Shown here: positions 19,889 through 32,097 of the stretch, one piece after another
Numbering within the stretch: position 1 is the first letter of the stretch
Layout: each line of letters starts with the position of its first letter
Assembly: GCA_021373255.1 (NCBI GenBank)
Contig: JAJFTD010000148.1
Span: forward strand, 1 to 32,097
From: a bacterium
GTDB taxonomy: Bacteria > Armatimonadota > UBA5829
Length of the DNA: 32,097 bases
Direction of reading: 5' to 3'
The notes under the pieces: generated by a model
What the model was told of the DNA's origin: nothing
Seen by the model: the letters and a program-made list of their open reading frames with translations, nothing else
Databases searched by the model: none
Made by a program: the position numbers and the translations under genes

Positions 19889-21574
19889 CTACACACACGC
19901 CCCGCAGATCCGGCATTCACCGATCCTGCATGGGGATGTGGTGTCTCCTTTCAAAGCCTTCTGATATTCATTCCAGAGGTAGACTTTTTCAACTTGGTTA
20001 TCAATATGATCCCATGGAAGAATATCATCGACGCTTCGGGTCTTGTAAAGAATCGGCTTGATATCGACTTCAGCCTTACGAAGCGCTGCGGAATAATCGC
20101 CATCATTCTCCAGTGCCTCATAAAGGACGGCACCTATCCGGCGGTCACCGCGAGCAAGATAACCCTGCACAGTCGCAAGCCGCGGGCTTTCGCCCCCAAA
20201 GTTCGCGCCCTTTATGGAGGATATCCCCGATCTCAGGGTCGCATATCTCTTCTTTAGCACACCCTCGCGCTCCATTGTATGCCACTGGAAAGGCGTCCAC
20301 GGTTTGGGAACAAAACTGCTCGCCGATACTTGGAGATTGATCCCCTGAAACTCGGATGCCAGGCGGCTGACAAGGTCGATAATCGCACGAATGTCATCGT
20401 CAGTCTCAGTGGGAAGCCCGATCATAAAATAAAGTTTAACACGATTTATGCCTGCCTCACGTGCGGCGGCAACCGCCGAGAACATTTGCTCCTCGGCAGT
20501 ATTTTTGTTTATCACCCGCCGAAGGCGCTCGCTGCCCGCTTCCGGGGCAATTGTGATCGTACGCTGTCCACCTTGGGCCATCAGACCGGTAAGCTCAGGG
20601 GTGACAGTCTCAAGCCTCACTGAAGATAGCGTGAACTCCTTACCTGCATTCACAATGGATTGGCAGATATCAGCAGCTTCCGGGTGGTCAAAAATCGCTG
20701 CTCCGACAAGCCCCAGGCGCGAAGCATCACACTCTGCATCTACGTCACGCAGACGCAAGGGGCGAGTGATATGACCCGCAAGGCAGAATCTGCATTTTCT
20801 CCCACACCCACGAGCCACTTCAACCAGGGCAATATCTCCGAATTCAGCTTCATCGGTGCGAATGATCGATGTAGACGGGTGCTGAGACAGATCACGTGCA
20901 ACCGCTCGGGTGACTTTATCGGGTGCCGGTGAGATGTTCGCAATGCGCACAAGCGCGCCTGACTCATCATATTCTGGTTGATAGAATTTTGGAACGTATA
21001 TGCTCGGAAGCGCGGCGAGTGCGGCAAGGCGTTCCTCACGTGGTTTTCCTTGGCTAGACTCCAACGCATCCACAAGGCCGGGTAAAACTTCCTCAGCATC
21101 ACCTACCACGAACGCGTCCACAAAGTCCGCCAATGGCTCGGGATTGAATGTGCCACAGGGACCGCCTACGATCACTATTGGATCGATGTCATCACGGTCC
21201 ACGCTCTTTACAGGCAGGTTCCCAAGCCTGAGAATCTTTAACACATTGAGATAATCCATCTCGAACGATATCGAAAACGCGATCACATCGAATTCAGACA
21301 GCGGCGACATCGTCTCAAGGCTGAATATCTCCGTATTAGTGCGCAGATGTTCTTTCAAATCAATCTCGTCAGGCAGAAACACGCGCTCACTGGATGCGTT
21401 GGGGAGTGAGTTCAACATTTGGTATACGAGCTGGTAGCCCAGCGAGGCCATTGCTACGCTGTAGACGTTGGGGAATGCGAACGCGAACCTCACAGCCGCA
21501 GCCCGTTCAACCGCAACCCCACCACTTTCACGCGCAAGTCTCGCTTTTGCTTTCTCGTAAAGGTCTATTGCCAT
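19889..21574 (-). CDS. Radical SAM protein of the TIGR03960 type
   Basis: A 561-residue protein. An N-terminal cobalamin-binding-like region carries VIVGGPCGTFNPEPLADFVDAFVVGDAEEV (from about 134). The radical SAM core has VARGCGRKCRFCLAGHITRP, with C257, C261 and C264 for the [4Fe-4S] cluster. The extreme C-terminus CRIGECRICGACV (C549, C554, C557, C560) could hold another cluster. This fits the uncharacterised family TIGR03960, often paired or fused with a DUF2344 (TIGR03936) partner near ribosomal L21 genes. That partner is not here. I take ATG 21574, where the conserved region starts, although the frame is open to 21697 and no clear Shine-Dalgarno exists. It is the head of the pgeF transcript. 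Function unknown. Confidence 0.85.
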   Translation of the reverse strand: MAIDLYEKAKARLARESGGVAVERAAAVRFAFAFPNVYSVAMASLGYQLVYQMLNSLPNASSERVFLPDEIDLKEHLRTNTEIFSLETMSPLSEFDVIAFSISFEMDYLNVLKILRLGNLPVKSVDRDDIDPIVIVGGPCGTFNPEPLADFVDAFVVGDAEEVLPGLVDALESSQGKPREERLAALAALPSIYVPKFYQPEYDESGALVRIANISPAPDKVTRAVARDLSQHPSTSIIRTDEAEFGDIALVEVARGCGRKCRFCLAGHITRPLRLRDVDAECDASRLGLVGAAIFDHPEAADICQSIVNAGKEFTLSSVRLETVTPELTGLMAQGGQRTITIAPEAGSERLRRVINKNTAEEQMFSAVAAAREAGINRVKLYFMIGLPTETDDDIRAIIDLVSRLASEFQGINLQVSASSFVPKPWTPFQWHTMEREGVLKKRYATLRSGISSIKGANFGGESPRLATVQGYLARGDRRIGAVLYEALENDGDYSAALRKAEVDIKPILYKTRSVDDILPWDHIDNQVEKVYLWNEYQKALKGDTTSPCRIGECRICGACV

Positions 21575-21719
21575 ATGTTCATGGTACGGCAATCTGCCCT
21601 GAGTTGCAAGCAGCCTGACCGGAGTAGCGGGAAGGGACTTAATCGCGAAAGGGCGAAAACACGAAAAGGGACAGAATGGAGTGGTTTCCATCCCCATCCC
21701 CTACTTTCTATCCCCTATC

Positions 21720-24487: not shown

Positions 24488-25177
24488 TTAATTAACAAAC
24501 CTATATTTAAACAAAGTCCATACTGCTACAAACGCATCGGACAATCGAATCTTCTTGCCTTCCTTTTTATTGCGACCAGTGTAATGTATAGGGACTTCAT
24601 ATATGTCAATATGATGCTTCGCCAGTTTTGCAGTTACCTCCGGGCAAAACTCAAAACCGCAGCATTTCAGCGGCATCTGTTTTAAAACATCACTTTTAAA
24701 AGCCTTGTAACAGGTTGCCTCATCTGTTATATGCATACCAAAGAGAAGATTGGTTGTAAAAGTAAGTATATAATTAGCTAATCGATTTTGAATACGCATT
24801 CCTTCGATTTTACCAAGAAATCGAGATCCATATACAACATCAGCATTACCTTCTACAATTGGTGTTATTATTTCCAGATACTGCTCAGGATCATATTCCA
24901 GATCTGCATCCTGAATAATAACAATATCTCCCGTTACATAATTAAGACCGGCTCTAATTGCTGCGCCTTTGCCAACATTTTCATTGGAGATGTGCAAAGT
25001 AATCCGCTTATCTGCATTATGCTCATTTATAACACGAATAGTATCATCCGTTGAACCATCATCAACGATTATAATCTCCTTCTCAATTCCATGTAGGTCC
25101 ACATCACTAACAGCCTTGATTACTTGAGCTATATGTTCTGCTTCATTATAGCAAGGGATAATAATCGATAATCTCAT
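24488..25177 (-). CDS. Family 2 glycosyltransferase (polyprenol-phosphate sugar synthase-like)
   Basis: A 229-residue GT-A enzyme. LSIIIPCYNEAEHI and IIIVDDGSTDDT form the nucleotide-sugar site, and QDADLEYDP carries the metal-binding D90-A-D92. VVYGSRFLGKIEGMRIQNRLANY and TDEATCYKAFKSDVL are typical of DPM1/GtrB-like enzymes that load mannose or glucose on polyprenol phosphate. There is no membrane helix at the C-terminus. The ATG overlaps the stop of the upstream membrane glycosyltransferase gene by 4 bases (ATGA), so the two are coupled; a lipid-linked sugar made here could feed that enzyme. A+T content is plainly higher than in neighbouring genes. Confidence 0.9.
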   Translation of the reverse strand: MRLSIIIPCYNEAEHIAQVIKAVSDVDLHGIEKEIIIVDDGSTDDTIRVINEHNADKRITLHISNENVGKGAAIRAGLNYVTGDIVIIQDADLEYDPEQYLEIITPIVEGNADVVYGSRFLGKIEGMRIQNRLANYILTFTTNLLFGMHITDEATCYKAFKSDVLKQMPLKCCGFEFCPEVTAKLAKHHIDIYEVPIHYTGRNKKEGKKIRLSDAFVAVWTLFKYRFVN

Positions 25178-26448
25178 TTCAATTCCTCCGTATCAGCAGG
25201 CTTTGATACAATTCGCCCTGATAACATCAAAAAAGATGTACATGCGAACCCAATTAGCAGCCCAGATAACGGCAGCAGATATCTGTATTCCGCATATATC
25301 ACCCCAAAAACAATGGTTGCATAAACCATCAATAATGCGCACGGCATCCAGAAGATATTTGACCTTTCAAATTTTGGGGTTCCTGCTCCCCAAGCAAGTA
25401 AAAGTAATCCGCTGATAATCGCGGCAAACATTGTTTTTATTTTGGAGTTCGGAGATAGATACCATAAACGTAACGATCCGATACATACTTTTCTAACAAG
25501 CGTCGCCGGGTGCTGCTGAACATCTTTCTTTGCTTTATTATTAAAATAATCATCTGCAACAGGTGTAATATCTAGATAACAACCATGGATACCATTCGTT
25601 CGGGTAGGAAAGCCCAAGCGAGCAGCTAGAGCATCATATTCACCATTTGCAATATTGACATTTACATCCAGAGCTCTATTACCAACCAAATATTGATAAC
25701 CGCCTCCGGTCGTTATCGGTATTAACCGTCCACTTACAATATAGTTCCGTACAGTCCAGGGGCAAATCACTATTAAAGCTACAATACAAAATGCAAAAGC
25801 GCATTTCCAACCTCGGCTTTCATTCTTACGACAGCTCAATAAGAATGCGGGTAACAATAATACAGGAAAACCTAACATCCAGCCTTTTGCAAGTACCTCT
25901 AAAGCGAATGCCGCTCCGGCAGCGGCTCCCCATATTGTATTGCGTATCCTAAACATAAAAAGCAAACAGAATGCAAATAATGATATAAAGAAGAACTGAA
26001 TTAGTTCTGTAAACGCATGCCATGAGTATATTATAAGCTGAGGATATAATGAGACTATTATGCCGGTCATCAACGCAGCATTTCTGCCAGCAATATACCA
26101 AAACATAGCAACCAGAACTGCGCAACCCAGTGCGGCAAATAGACAGTTTATAATTAAAACAGATAAATCCATATTGCCTATCAGATGATCAGTAAAACCC
26201 AACAATAATGGATAAACTGGAGCACGAAACACAGAGGGTTTCAGATCAGGAGCAAATCTTATACCATAACCTTGAGCAACCATTTGCCCGAGGTCTTGGT
26301 AACCATCCGAACTATAATAGCTTGGCGATTTGGGACCGATCTTCATACCAAATGAGAGCGAAGCAAAGACAAATACAGCCCTCACAGCAAGATTTAACAA
26401 AACCATAAATAACATCAACTTGCACAATTGTTTTTGTTTCACCATCAT
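25174..26448 (-). CDS. Polytopic GT-C glycosyltransferase (ArnT/PMT-like)
   Basis: A 424-residue membrane protein with about ten or more hydrophobic helices. The first outer loop contains SDGYQDLGQMVAQGYGI and FRAPVYPLLLGF, in the place where GT39/ArnT-type enzymes have their catalytic acidic loop. Such enzymes move a sugar from a polyprenol phosphate carrier to a lipid or protein outside the membrane. The acceptor cannot be read. Start: ATG 26448, followed by a second ATG at 26445, with AGGG 6 to 9 bases upstream; an earlier ATG at 26472 is weaker. It is coupled to the GT2 gene. It is A+T-rich and lies inside the direct-repeat bracket, which suggests transfer. Confidence 0.85.
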   Translation of the reverse strand: MMVKQKQLCKLMLFMVLLNLAVRAVFVFASLSFGMKIGPKSPSYYSSDGYQDLGQMVAQGYGIRFAPDLKPSVFRAPVYPLLLGFTDHLIGNMDLSVLIINCLFAALGCAVLVAMFWYIAGRNAALMTGIIVSLYPQLIIYSWHAFTELIQFFFISLFAFCLLFMFRIRNTIWGAAAGAAFALEVLAKGWMLGFPVLLLPAFLLSCRKNESRGWKCAFAFCIVALIVICPWTVRNYIVSGRLIPITTGGGYQYLVGNRALDVNVNIANGEYDALAARLGFPTRTNGIHGCYLDITPVADDYFNNKAKKDVQQHPATLVRKVCIGSLRLWYLSPNSKIKTMFAAIISGLLLLAWGAGTPKFERSNIFWMPCALLMVYATIVFGVIYAEYRYLLPLSGLLIGFACTSFLMLSGRIVSKPADTEELK

Positions 26449-26734
26449 CACACACCCTGGTACTGTATACATATCGTGCTCTATGTATAATTGCTTTAGT
26501 TATTGCACATTATACAATTCAATCGCACATAGTTTAGATACTACTAAGTTGCTATTTTTCATCTTCCGTTTTTTTAATACCTCATGATAACTGCAACTGA
26601 GATGGATTCATGATCACTACACAAGATCGGAACTCAAAGCAAGTTACCTTAAACACTATAGCAAATTCTCAAGGAAAGAAAAAGGTCAGCTCATCAGTGA
26701 ATGGTATACCACATATGTGCTTAGCATTAGCATG
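26449..26734. other. A+T-rich intergenic region inside the repeat bracket
   Basis: This is upstream of the glycosyltransferase pair and should hold its promoter; a TATAAT occurs on the minus strand near 26510-26505 without a clear -35. A plus-strand frame from ATG 26610 runs 54 codons into repeat copy B and ends KLPRPQYPAGKI. It has no ribosome-binding site and is not recognised. Confidence 0.4.
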
Positions 26735-28973: not shown

Positions 28974-31481
28974 ATGAGAACGCTTTTCTTGAACCCCCCA
29001 TCATTCCAAGGTTTCGACGGCGGCGCTGGATCACGTTATCAGGCCAAGCGCGAGGTGCGCTCGTTTTGGTATCCGACGTGGCTGGCGCAGGCTGCGGCGC
29101 TCGTACCCGGCAGCAGGGTGATCGACGCTCCGGCTGATGAGCTCAGAGTCGAGACTATTGTCGATATTAGCAGCGGGTATGAGTTGGTGATTATCTACAC
29201 CAGCACTCCATCGTTTTCCAACGACGCAAGGGTAGCCTCGCAGATCAAACAGAGAAATCCTAAGGCACTAATTGGATTCGTGGGGCCACACGTGACGGTC
29301 TTGCCGGAGCAGTCGCTGCGTGCGGCGGCTTCGGTAGATTTCGTGGTGCGGCGTGAGTTTGAGTTGCCTATCCGTGATATTGCCTGCGGAAAACCGCTGG
29401 GTGATGTGCGAGAGGTATCTTGGAAGGATGGAGATGTTATCCGGCACAACGCTGACGCCGACCTACTCACCGATCTCGATAGCCTGCCTTTCGTGGTGGA
29501 TGTATATAAGCGCGACCTCACGATCGGAAACTACTATATCGGTTATCTCATGCACCCGTATCTTTCAATTTACACGGGCCGTGGGTGCCCGGGACGGTGC
29601 ACTTATTGCCTTTGGCCACAGACTATATCCGGGCATCAATACCGCGTTCGTGGGGCGGAGTCGGTTTATCAGGAATTGGCTTATGCGAAAGAACTGTTCC
29701 CACAGGTGAAGGAGTTCTTCATCGACGACGACACTTTCACCGCGAACACTAAGCGTGCGGAGGAGATTGCAGGAAAACTGGCGACGCTGGGGATTACATG
29801 GTCCACCAGCAGCCGCGCGAATGTGCCAAGAGAAACTCTGAGAATACTCAAGGAGTGTGGGCTGCGGCTGCTTATGGTGGGGTATGAGTCCGGCAGCGAT
29901 GACATCCTCAAAAATGTGCGTAAGGGCATAAGCACTGAGATGGCAACGAGATTCACTGAGGATTGCAAGTCCCTGGGGATTGCCATTCACGGCACGTTTT
30001 GCCTTGGTTTGCCAGGTGAGACAAGGGAGACTATTGAGGAAACCATACGTTATGCATGCCGCCTTGACCCCGACACAATCCAGGTATCCATAGCATCCCC
30101 CTACCCTGGAACCGAGCTGTATCAGCAGGCGTTGGAAAACGGGTGGCTTGCGCAGGAGGACCTTGTGTCCACTGACGGCACACAGACATGCGCCCTCAGA
30201 TATCCGCAGATATCGCCCGAAGAGATCGAGGCTTCTGTGGACAAGTTCTATAAGCGTTTTTATTTCCGTCCCAAGGTAATGGCCAGAATGGGTTTGCAGA
30301 TGGCAAAAGATGCCGACACCAGGCGCAGGCGGCTGCGTGAGGGGAGAGAGTTTCTTTCATTCCTTAAACGGCATGATGCCGCCAAACCAAATGGTGGGTC
30401 TGCTCTTAGAAAGGTGCTACGCGACGGTGGGCCGGGGTTCTGCCAGTTTGCAATTACTAATGCCTGCAATGCACACTGCCAATTCTGCAACTTCCGTGTT
30501 GGCAGTGGGATGACCGGCGAGCGTATCTTTGTGAGTCTCGAAGACAGCAAAGCCGCTATGCGTATTCTGGCTGACAATGGGGTTGAGTATATGGCGCTGG
30601 TCGGTGGGGAACCAACCCTGCATCCGAAGCTGCCTGAGATACTCCAGTCGGCACAATCTCTGGGGATTAACACCCTCATCAGCACAAATGGCTCGTATCT
30701 CACTGACGAGCGGGTGAAAGAATACGCTGATGCTGGGCTAGGCAGCGCCATTATTTCGATAGACGCGCCGGGAGTGGAGGCTCACGAAGCTAATCGGGGC
30801 CTGCCGGGGGTTTGCGAACGTATAGCCAGGACCAATTCGGAATTCCACAGGTTGGGTGTCTCTACTACAGCATCAGTGACGATCAGCAAGCTCCTTGGAG
30901 ACTTGTCTCAGCTACCTGCGTTTCTAAAATCGCTGAACTTCACTCAGGTGACATTCTCCTATCCACTTCGCAGCCTTGACTCGAGTTTTCTCGGGTTCTC
31001 TGATTCGGAGATCATCGAGTTCACTGATGATGAGTTGATCGCAATCTTTGATACTATCATCAAGATGAAAAAAACATTCCCAGTAGTAAATCCAACGGCT
31101 TCGCTGCGTGAGATGCAAAGGTTTATTCGAGGCGAGAGGCAGATGTTCCCGTGCCTTGCCGGGTTCAAGTATTTCCACCTGGACTGGAACCTGGACCTTT
31201 ACAGATGCCACGCATGGCCAAAGAAAATGTGCACAATATGGGATTTCGACTCATCAAAGCTGGTGCGCGATGGCTGCACCCGGTGTATGATCGACTGTTA
31301 TCGTGATGCTAGTGTGCTGCACAACGTCGGAATTGCGCTTTACGATGCGAAAGTCGATCTTAGCAGAGCCAGGCCTGTGATGGCACTCACCCACGTGGCG
31401 AACCGTGCTTTATATGAGTCTGCGAAATCCATATTGGAGGACTTCAGGTGGATCAAAAAGTTGGGTGCTGGACGTTCATAA
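28974..31481 (+). CDS. hpnJ: HpnJ-like radical SAM enzyme fused to a second radical SAM/SPASM domain
   Basis: An 835-residue protein with two radical SAM cores. Residues 1-468 match HpnJ, implicated in forming the cyclitol ether head of bacteriohopanetetrol: MRTLFLNPPS, FDGGAGSRYQAKREVRSFWYP, C205-C209-C212 (GRGCPGRCTYCLWPQT), EFFIDDDTFTANTKRAEEIA and LRLLMVGYESGSDDIL. HpnJ normally ends near residue 470. Here a short linker leads into a second core with C498-C502-C505 (NACNAHCQFC) and LVGGEPTLHPKLPEIL, and then a cysteine-rich tail (C727, C745, C753, C768, C771, C775) like a SPASM domain. The ATG at 28974 is fixed by homology; its ribosome-binding site is poor. The partner domain's reaction is unknown. 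A membrane-protein pair follows on the same strand. Confidence 0.88.
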   Translation: MRTLFLNPPSFQGFDGGAGSRYQAKREVRSFWYPTWLAQAAALVPGSRVIDAPADELRVETIVDISSGYELVIIYTSTPSFSNDARVASQIKQRNPKALIGFVGPHVTVLPEQSLRAAASVDFVVRREFELPIRDIACGKPLGDVREVSWKDGDVIRHNADADLLTDLDSLPFVVDVYKRDLTIGNYYIGYLMHPYLSIYTGRGCPGRCTYCLWPQTISGHQYRVRGAESVYQELAYAKELFPQVKEFFIDDDTFTANTKRAEEIAGKLATLGITWSTSSRANVPRETLRILKECGLRLLMVGYESGSDDILKNVRKGISTEMATRFTEDCKSLGIAIHGTFCLGLPGETRETIEETIRYACRLDPDTIQVSIASPYPGTELYQQALENGWLAQEDLVSTDGTQTCALRYPQISPEEIEASVDKFYKRFYFRPKVMARMGLQMAKDADTRRRRLREGREFLSFLKRHDAAKPNGGSALRKVLRDGGPGFCQFAITNACNAHCQFCNFRVGSGMTGERIFVSLEDSKAAMRILADNGVEYMALVGGEPTLHPKLPEILQSAQSLGINTLISTNGSYLTDERVKEYADAGLGSAIISIDAPGVEAHEANRGLPGVCERIARTNSEFHRLGVSTTASVTISKLLGDLSQLPAFLKSLNFTQVTFSYPLRSLDSSFLGFSDSEIIEFTDDELIAIFDTIIKMKKTFPVVNPTASLREMQRFIRGERQMFPCLAGFKYFHLDWNLDLYRCHAWPKKMCTIWDFDSSKLVRDGCTRCMIDCYRDASVLHNVGIALYDAKVDLSRARPVMALTHVANRALYESAKSILEDFRWIKKLGAGRS

Positions 31482-32016: not shown

Positions 32017-32097
32017 ATGTTAAAAGTGGCAATTGGGCTTACAATAGCAATCGTCTTCGGCGCACTTGGAGACATATTCATGAGCAGGGGAATGCGT
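32017..32097 (+). CDS. Second EamA/SMR-like membrane protein, truncated by window end
   Basis: The 27 residues visible, ending VFGALGDIFMSRGMR, repeat the first helix of the previous gene (VVFGAFGDISIRHGMK). The ATG directly follows the previous stop codon. Two adjoining half-size paralogues usually form a heterodimeric transporter of the small multidrug resistance/EamA kind. The remainder lies outside the window. Confidence 0.75.
   Translation, partial: MLKVAIGLTIAIVFGALGDIFMSRGMR

Follow-up and report, generated by a model that had tools for sequence, protein, structure and literature searches.

The fusion gene and its surroundings

The window, by which we mean the whole stretch of 32,097 nucleotides analysed here, begins at base 1 of contig C2 in its genome, and the contig apparently ends about 600 bases past the gene that is the subject of this work. 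This gene is an open reading frame on the forward strand (28974..31481, +), running from ATG to stop through 835 aa with no internal stop codons. It encodes a fusion of two radical SAM enzymes. The first is HpnJ, which elsewhere is a protein of about 470-490 aa that stands alone, whereas here it is extended at its C-terminus by a second radical SAM enzyme. We have given the name RS2 to this second half, which starts at about residue 484. Hopanoids are sterol-like membrane lipids, and HpnJ builds the sugar-like head group of the hopanoid, making a cyclitol ether out of bacteriohopanetetrol (BHT) glucosamine.

The HpnJ part is a cobalamin-binding radical SAM protein covering residues 1-467 (28974..30374, +). 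Over these residues it scores 725.5 bits against the NCBIfam model TIGR03471, for which the curated cut-off is 577.6, and the match takes in profile positions 1-470 of 472. The radical SAM (PF04055) and B12-binding (PF02310) domains of Pfam are both found over their cut-offs, and the core motif C205, C209, C212 is invariant across 35 rows of HpnJ sequence. By score, by domains and by genomic company, the HpnJ half is a true member of its family in every respect that could be tested, and a sequence-only reading of this DNA, which had taken residues 1-468 to be a full HpnJ-like enzyme, was right in this.

A linker that is unconserved and predicted to be disordered (residues 463-483; 30360..30422, +) leads into RS2 (residues 484-835; 30423..31478, +), a second complete radical SAM enzyme that has no NCBIfam name. 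It contains a second CxxxCxxC core (C498, C502 and C505; 30465..30488, +) and six C-terminal cysteines (C727, C745, C753, C768, C771 and C775; 31152..31298, +). The sequence-only reading had picked out both groups, within the one reading frame, and all nine cysteines prove to be invariant in 59/59 relatives, so their presence is not due to chance. C614, which is absent from that reading, is a tenth cysteine constant in the same 59 sequences; it lies in the motif NRGxxGVC, with its codon at 30813..30815 (+). These ten cysteines, together with a squalene-hopene cyclase in the genome, define the RS2 family, and both are found for the fusion of the window. PF04055 is matched by all 59 members, and RS2 is a member of the radical SAM superfamily. 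None of the curated NCBIfam cut-offs was reached by the second half of the fusion, nor by three stand-alone relatives.

The second domain had also been labelled SPASM, and this label finds no support. The Pfam SPASM profiles, searched at E 0.001, gave zero matches to the 59 RS2 members, and the C-terminal cysteines are spaced C-x17-C-x7-C-x14-C-x2-C-x3-C, which differs from the canonical SPASM motif of Cx9-15Gx4C-gap-Cx2Cx5Cx3C-gap-C. The six cysteines probably coordinate auxiliary Fe-S clusters, one or two in number, and C614 is a candidate hydrogen-atom donor.

The fusion gene is followed by a gene for a small EamA/DMT transporter (ArnE/F-like, PF00892; 31555..32016, +). This is the first of a pair, the second DMT transporter gene being present only as its start (MLKVAIGLTIAIVFGALGDIFMSRGMR...; 32017..32097, +) before it is cut by the contig end; a homolog of it is found at L009:4401-4772. 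In genomes with the fusion, its gene is followed by a transporter pair of this kind (e.g. L009:4007-4775), as is hpnJ in a Nitrospirota MAG (L057, 1821-2620); homologs adjoin hpnJ in L154 and L175 and are present at the RS2 locus L064. It is possible that the pair serves as a flippase for the hopanoid head group. On the reverse strand of the window, a polyprenyl-phosphate glycosyltransferase-like GT2 gene overlaps a PMT_2-type glycosyltransferase gene (24488-26472, -), the two forming a lipid-linked sugar unit. Two other radical SAM sequences are present in the window, a Radical_SAM_N2-type protein (19889-21697, -) and a fragment at the start of the contig (37-546, -).

Conservation and origin of the fusion

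A search of 15 genomes belonging to the window's own Armatimonadota family found the same fusion in five further genomes, in four of which it is intact. In these four (G012, G013, G014 and G006) it occupies one frame of 827-830 aa, with 63-71% identity to the window protein. The fifth copy, in G011, has the junction in frame and a broken HpnJ half, in which several frame changes are seen (G011:C67:6440-9026; L013, L036, L044), the result of either assembly error or decay. The relatives of the fusion genomes include the Armatimonadetes MAGs L044 and L045.

The sequence-only reading had itself raised the worry that a sequencing frameshift might have merged two genes, in which case close relatives should have two separate genes. 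The broken frame in the HpnJ half of G011 is a point in favour of a frameshift or an assembly artefact. Against this, five genomes have the same intact single frame, with a linker that has diverged between halves that are conserved, and these five orthologous fusions rule the artefact out, leaving it a probability close to nil. The close relatives are themselves fused, and the fusion is therefore real. Of the expected separate genes, it can be said that they do exist, but in more distant phyla; within the family, G004 has HpnJ alone, with RS2 absent.

Amino acid identity is 60-87% in the two halves against 19-55% in the linker, for which dN is 0.25-1.3. Purifying selection acts on both halves, with dN/dS for G012 versus G014 being approximately 0.07 in HpnJ and 0.08 in RS2, compared with 0.23 in the linker. 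In the trees, the fused HpnJ sequences group in a single clade (100/97), whose sister is the unfused HpnJ of G004, and the RS2 halves likewise make up a single clade (100/100). The simplest reading is that there was one fusion event, and that G004 either diverged earlier or lost RS2.

Of 291 Armatimonadota genomes searched, about 36 gave an HpnJ, and no RS2 was seen outside the six fusions; three candidates were scored per genome, so that a distant RS2 may be missed. A frame of 973 aa at L194 was considered as another HpnJ fusion and rejected: Pfam finds no additional domain in it, and it is therefore probably just a long open frame. The fusion is a conserved, lineage-specific union of two enzymes whose genes often adjoin each other in other lineages.

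RS2 as a separate gene in hopanoid genomes

The RS2 alignment was scanned against approximately 85,000 species genomes, which returned 200 relatives, 80 of which were kept. Among those kept, RS2 outside the Armatimonadota is a separate protein of about 370-400 aa. It occurs in Cyanobacteria (including Nostoc, Anabaena and Calothrix), Verrucomicrobiota, Planctomycetota, Nitrospirota, Methylomirabilota and Pseudomonadota, and also in MAGs labelled Marinimicrobia, Omnitrophota, Acidobacteriota and Thermodesulfobacteriota, these labels being possibly wrong. A search for RS2 on plasmids gave zero matches.

The sequence-only reading had proposed a search for genomes in which the second domain is encoded separately, beside hpnJ. 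The outcome is positive, in that RS2 and hpnJ are immediate neighbours, with one strand carrying both, in 14 loci (L046, L053, L055, L056, L061, L067, L070, L071, L072, L087, L093, L094, L100 and L103; neighbours were named by the NCBIfam cut-offs, applied to representatives). Both gene orders occur, with hpnJ followed by RS2 in Planctomycetota and Verrucomicrobia, and RS2 followed by hpnJ in Pseudomonadota and in loci labelled Marinimicrobia. The order is hpnI, RS2, hpnJ, hpnK, hpnL in L067, and hpnH, hpnJ, RS2 is seen in Verrucomicrobia, while in L070 and L071 RS2 is grouped with hpnN, hpnM and hpnJ. The cyanobacterial RS2 genes either follow hpnH or are separated by a few kb from hpnI, hpnK and hpnJ, and in many Verrucomicrobia hpnJ is not close to RS2 within the flanks examined. 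A further gene in these surroundings codes for a PhyH-type (Fe/2-oxoglutarate) dioxygenase (L071:2680-3549); it is located between hpnK and hpnN in L070 and L071, adjoins hpnN in L087, and is a candidate hydroxylase for bacteriohopanepentol (BHpentol) and bacteriohopanehexol (BHhexol).

Squalene-hopene cyclase (PF13243) was found in 50/50 RS2 genomes, in 49 of them at E <1e-100 and in G045 as a partial match. These 50 genomes had been chosen by their RS2 similarity. HpnJ is present in 47/50, made up of 44/47 genomes from outside the Armatimonadota and three Armatimonad fusion genomes. The RS2 genomes without HpnJ are G040, G053 and G059, and in G040 hpnI and hpnK lie at the extreme end of a contig, where relatives have hpnJ next. 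HpnI was found in 49/54 of the genomes searched, which corresponds to 45/50 of the RS2 genomes tested for the cyclase, and HpnK in nearly all. Within the window's family, the 7/15 genomes with HpnJ are exactly those with the cyclase, which is absent from the other eight. The window's own genome (G000) has a squalene-hopene cyclase, as well as adjacent hpnK and hpnI genes at C186:10034-12009, away from the window, and the cyclitol-ether pathway is thus complete there. Over 38 genomes, the distances between pairs of HpnJ sequences correlate with those between RS2 sequences (r = 0.93), the largest value in 2000 permutations being 0.30. Shared ancestry accounts for part of this correlation and of the phylogenetic profiles.

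Three genomes, two of them Planctomycetota MAGs and one a related RS2 genome, have a second HpnJ-like paralog beside the true HpnJ (G022:C179, G029:C44 and G031:C62), which at 366-394 bits is below the HpnJ cut-off.

HpnJ is frequently found where RS2 is not. A sample of 385 Alphaproteobacteria had HpnJ in 31, with RS2 in at least 3/31 (one of these at 40% identity), and a sample of 390 Cyanobacteria had an HpnJ-like match in 52, with RS2 in at least 6/52; both RS2 counts are lower bounds, two candidates having been scored per genome. In 388 Verrucomicrobiota, both HpnJ and RS2 were few. In Alphaproteobacteria, the presence of HpnI, HpnK and HpnJ matches cyclitol ether production (PMC12583986), and HpnJ therefore seemingly needs no RS2. 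Given the adjacency to hpnJ, the cyclase in 50/50, HpnJ in 47/50 and the many HpnJ genomes without RS2, which are the majority, RS2 is best described as an accessory enzyme of the cyclitol-ether branch. Two RS2-like proteins from Alphaproteobacteria, with 40-42% identity (G452:C109:8151-9212 and G578:C2:13750-14787), do not adjoin HpnJ, and G452 has no HpnJ match; they may form a divergent branch whose role is different.

The same evidence, namely the 14 adjacent loci, the hpn operons, the cyclase and HpnJ, bears out the proposal that the second domain works in the same pathway as HpnJ. It is very probable, from this genomic company, that RS2 is a hopanoid-pathway enzyme alongside HpnJ. Taken as a whole, the sequence-only reading is partly supported; its further idea, that the second domain acts on the head group or passes on an intermediate, is a proposal.

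Possible function of RS2

Both the full-length protein and RS2 were modelled. The full-length model has a pLDDT of 75, with a shallow alignment, a poor second half and values <50 from residue 470. The RS2 model, made with AlphaFold2, has a pLDDT of 90 and pTM of 0.89. Its closest solved fold is BlsE (PDB 7vob; TIGR04466), with Z 24.9 and rmsd 3.4 over 291 residues, the next entry being a viperin-like structure at 21.5. BlsE is also the best sequence match in the PDB, at 21% identity, and is, like RS2, a radical SAM enzyme. Such a likeness of fold does not establish a function. The sequence match is confined to the core, the pathways differ, and RS2 scores 61.4 bits against TIGR04466 where 400 is required, placing it outside the BlsE family. 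At the place aligned with C614, BlsE has RRSPGMFD, with no cysteine. BlsE is a cytosylglucuronate decarboxylase, whose target is a glucuronosyl residue (PMC3715490). The sugar and epimerase radical SAM enzymes DesII, AbmM and EpeE are also fold matches, at Z 15-17 and so well under BlsE; they exemplify the type of chemistry proposed here, but act on other substrates, and RS2 does not belong with them at the sequence level. Another radical SAM enzyme of the hopanoid pathway is the adenosyl-hopene transferase HpnH (TIGR03470), whose gene adjoins RS2 in some cyanobacteria. The RS2 relatives scanned gave no match to the HpnH model at E 1e-20, and HpnH has a DUF3463 domain.

From the invariant cysteines, and from BlsE as the best match in both fold and sequence, we infer that RS2 acts on an aminosugar or cyclitol head group. 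The reading that we favour, with reasonable but far from complete confidence, is that the fusion is bifunctional and works in the cyclitol-ether branch of hopanoid synthesis, with RS2 tailoring the head group. The HpnJ half would function as a normal HpnJ, converting BHT glucosamine to the cyclitol ether. In RS2, the [4Fe-4S] cluster held by C498, C502 and C505 would be reduced and SAM cleaved, giving a 5'-deoxyadenosyl radical, which would take a hydrogen from the sugar-like head group of either BHT glucosamine or BHT cyclitol ether. The resulting radical would be quenched or oxidised by way of C614 or the auxiliary cluster(s), and the product would be a tailored head group, for example an epimer, or a cyclitol in oxidised or deoxygenated form. 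The fusion would thereby bring the enzymes of consecutive steps together on one membrane-lipid substrate. The parts of this scheme, from the substrate and the order of steps to the chemistry and the role of C614, are proposals of differing strength. That the substrate is the head group is rather probable; that the reaction is specifically a stereochemical inversion is a tentative suggestion, to which we give a probability of perhaps a quarter.

A different view would accept the hopanoid pathway and have RS2 act on the polyol side chain or the ring system of the same lipid, with the link to HpnJ reflecting the shared pathway only. Such a reaction might be the addition of the extra hydroxyls of BHpentol or BHhexol, a change of stereochemistry at C-34 or C-22, or the step from ribosylhopane to BHT. 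There are no known genes for BHpentol or BHhexol, nor a known enzyme for the conversion of ribosylhopane to BHT (PMC12583986), and in several cyanobacteria it is hpnH and not hpnJ that lies directly ahead of RS2. Set against these points, RS2 tracks HpnJ (47/50) and HpnI closely, and the fusion partner is HpnJ, not HpnH. Furthermore, most HpnJ genomes have no RS2, and RS2 is therefore not a general BHT-forming enzyme. We consider a side-chain or ring substrate unlikely, while regarding it as a serious competitor. The fusion with HpnJ and adjacency to it, and the additional Fe-S cysteines, would suit an auxiliary partner that assists HpnJ in the ring contraction, by electron supply, radical relay or shielding, and catalyses no separate step. 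This is improbable, in that no RS2 is shown in 28/31 of the Alphaproteobacteria and 46/52 of the Cyanobacteria with HpnJ, nor in the other Armatimonadota sampled; HpnI, HpnK and HpnJ match cyclitol-ether production in Alphaproteobacteria with no such partner named (PMC12583986); and RS2 has kept a complete catalytic core.

Two further ideas place RS2 outside lipid head-group synthesis of this kind. Several of the weak family matches are RiPP maturases (StsB, PapB and SkfB), which would fit a peptide- or protein-modifying enzyme, of RiPP type or a SPASM maturase, that was fused to HpnJ by accident. The lack of a SPASM profile match, the unreached cut-offs of the curated families, the cyclase in 50/50 RS2 genomes and the recurrent hpn operons all speak against it, and we give it very little credence. 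A non-hopanoid role, concerned with a lipid-A-like aminosugar, was prompted by the ArnE/F-like transporters and the GT2/PMT genes of the window; it was put aside, since the genome has squalene-hopene cyclase, HpnI and HpnK, and since within the family the cyclase tracks HpnJ.

Returning to the tailoring of the head group, RS2 could make a hopanoid head group to which no gene has so far been assigned, such as the later-eluting isomer of BHT cyclitol ether, with the single polypeptide of the fusion carrying out two radical rearrangements in succession on the same lipid-bound aminosugar. We offer this as a conceivable outcome, the balance being somewhat against it. A survey of Alphaproteobacteria in 2025 described many variants (isomers of unknown structure, pentols and hexols) for which genes are not known, and saw nothing near the hpn clusters that stood out as a new candidate (PMC12583986). 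Our search for literature on hopanoids, radical SAM and SPASM together found no paper; subscription literature was mostly outside this search, and an earlier mention of RS2 is possible.

The larger novelty is RS2 itself, an unnamed hopanoid-linked radical SAM family present across phyla, and the smaller is the fusion, which is found in one family only. Hopanoids serve as molecular fossils, and RS2, which occurs in many phyla, is tied to squalene-hopene cyclase and HpnJ, and is present in culturable cyanobacteria, is a candidate for the hopanoid variants that are without genes. The Armatimonadota fusion is an independent line of evidence for joint action of RS2 and HpnJ, and provides a ready bifunctional enzyme for the study of two radical reactions on one lipid. 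RS2 points to an unrecognised step in the synthesis of hopanoid head groups.
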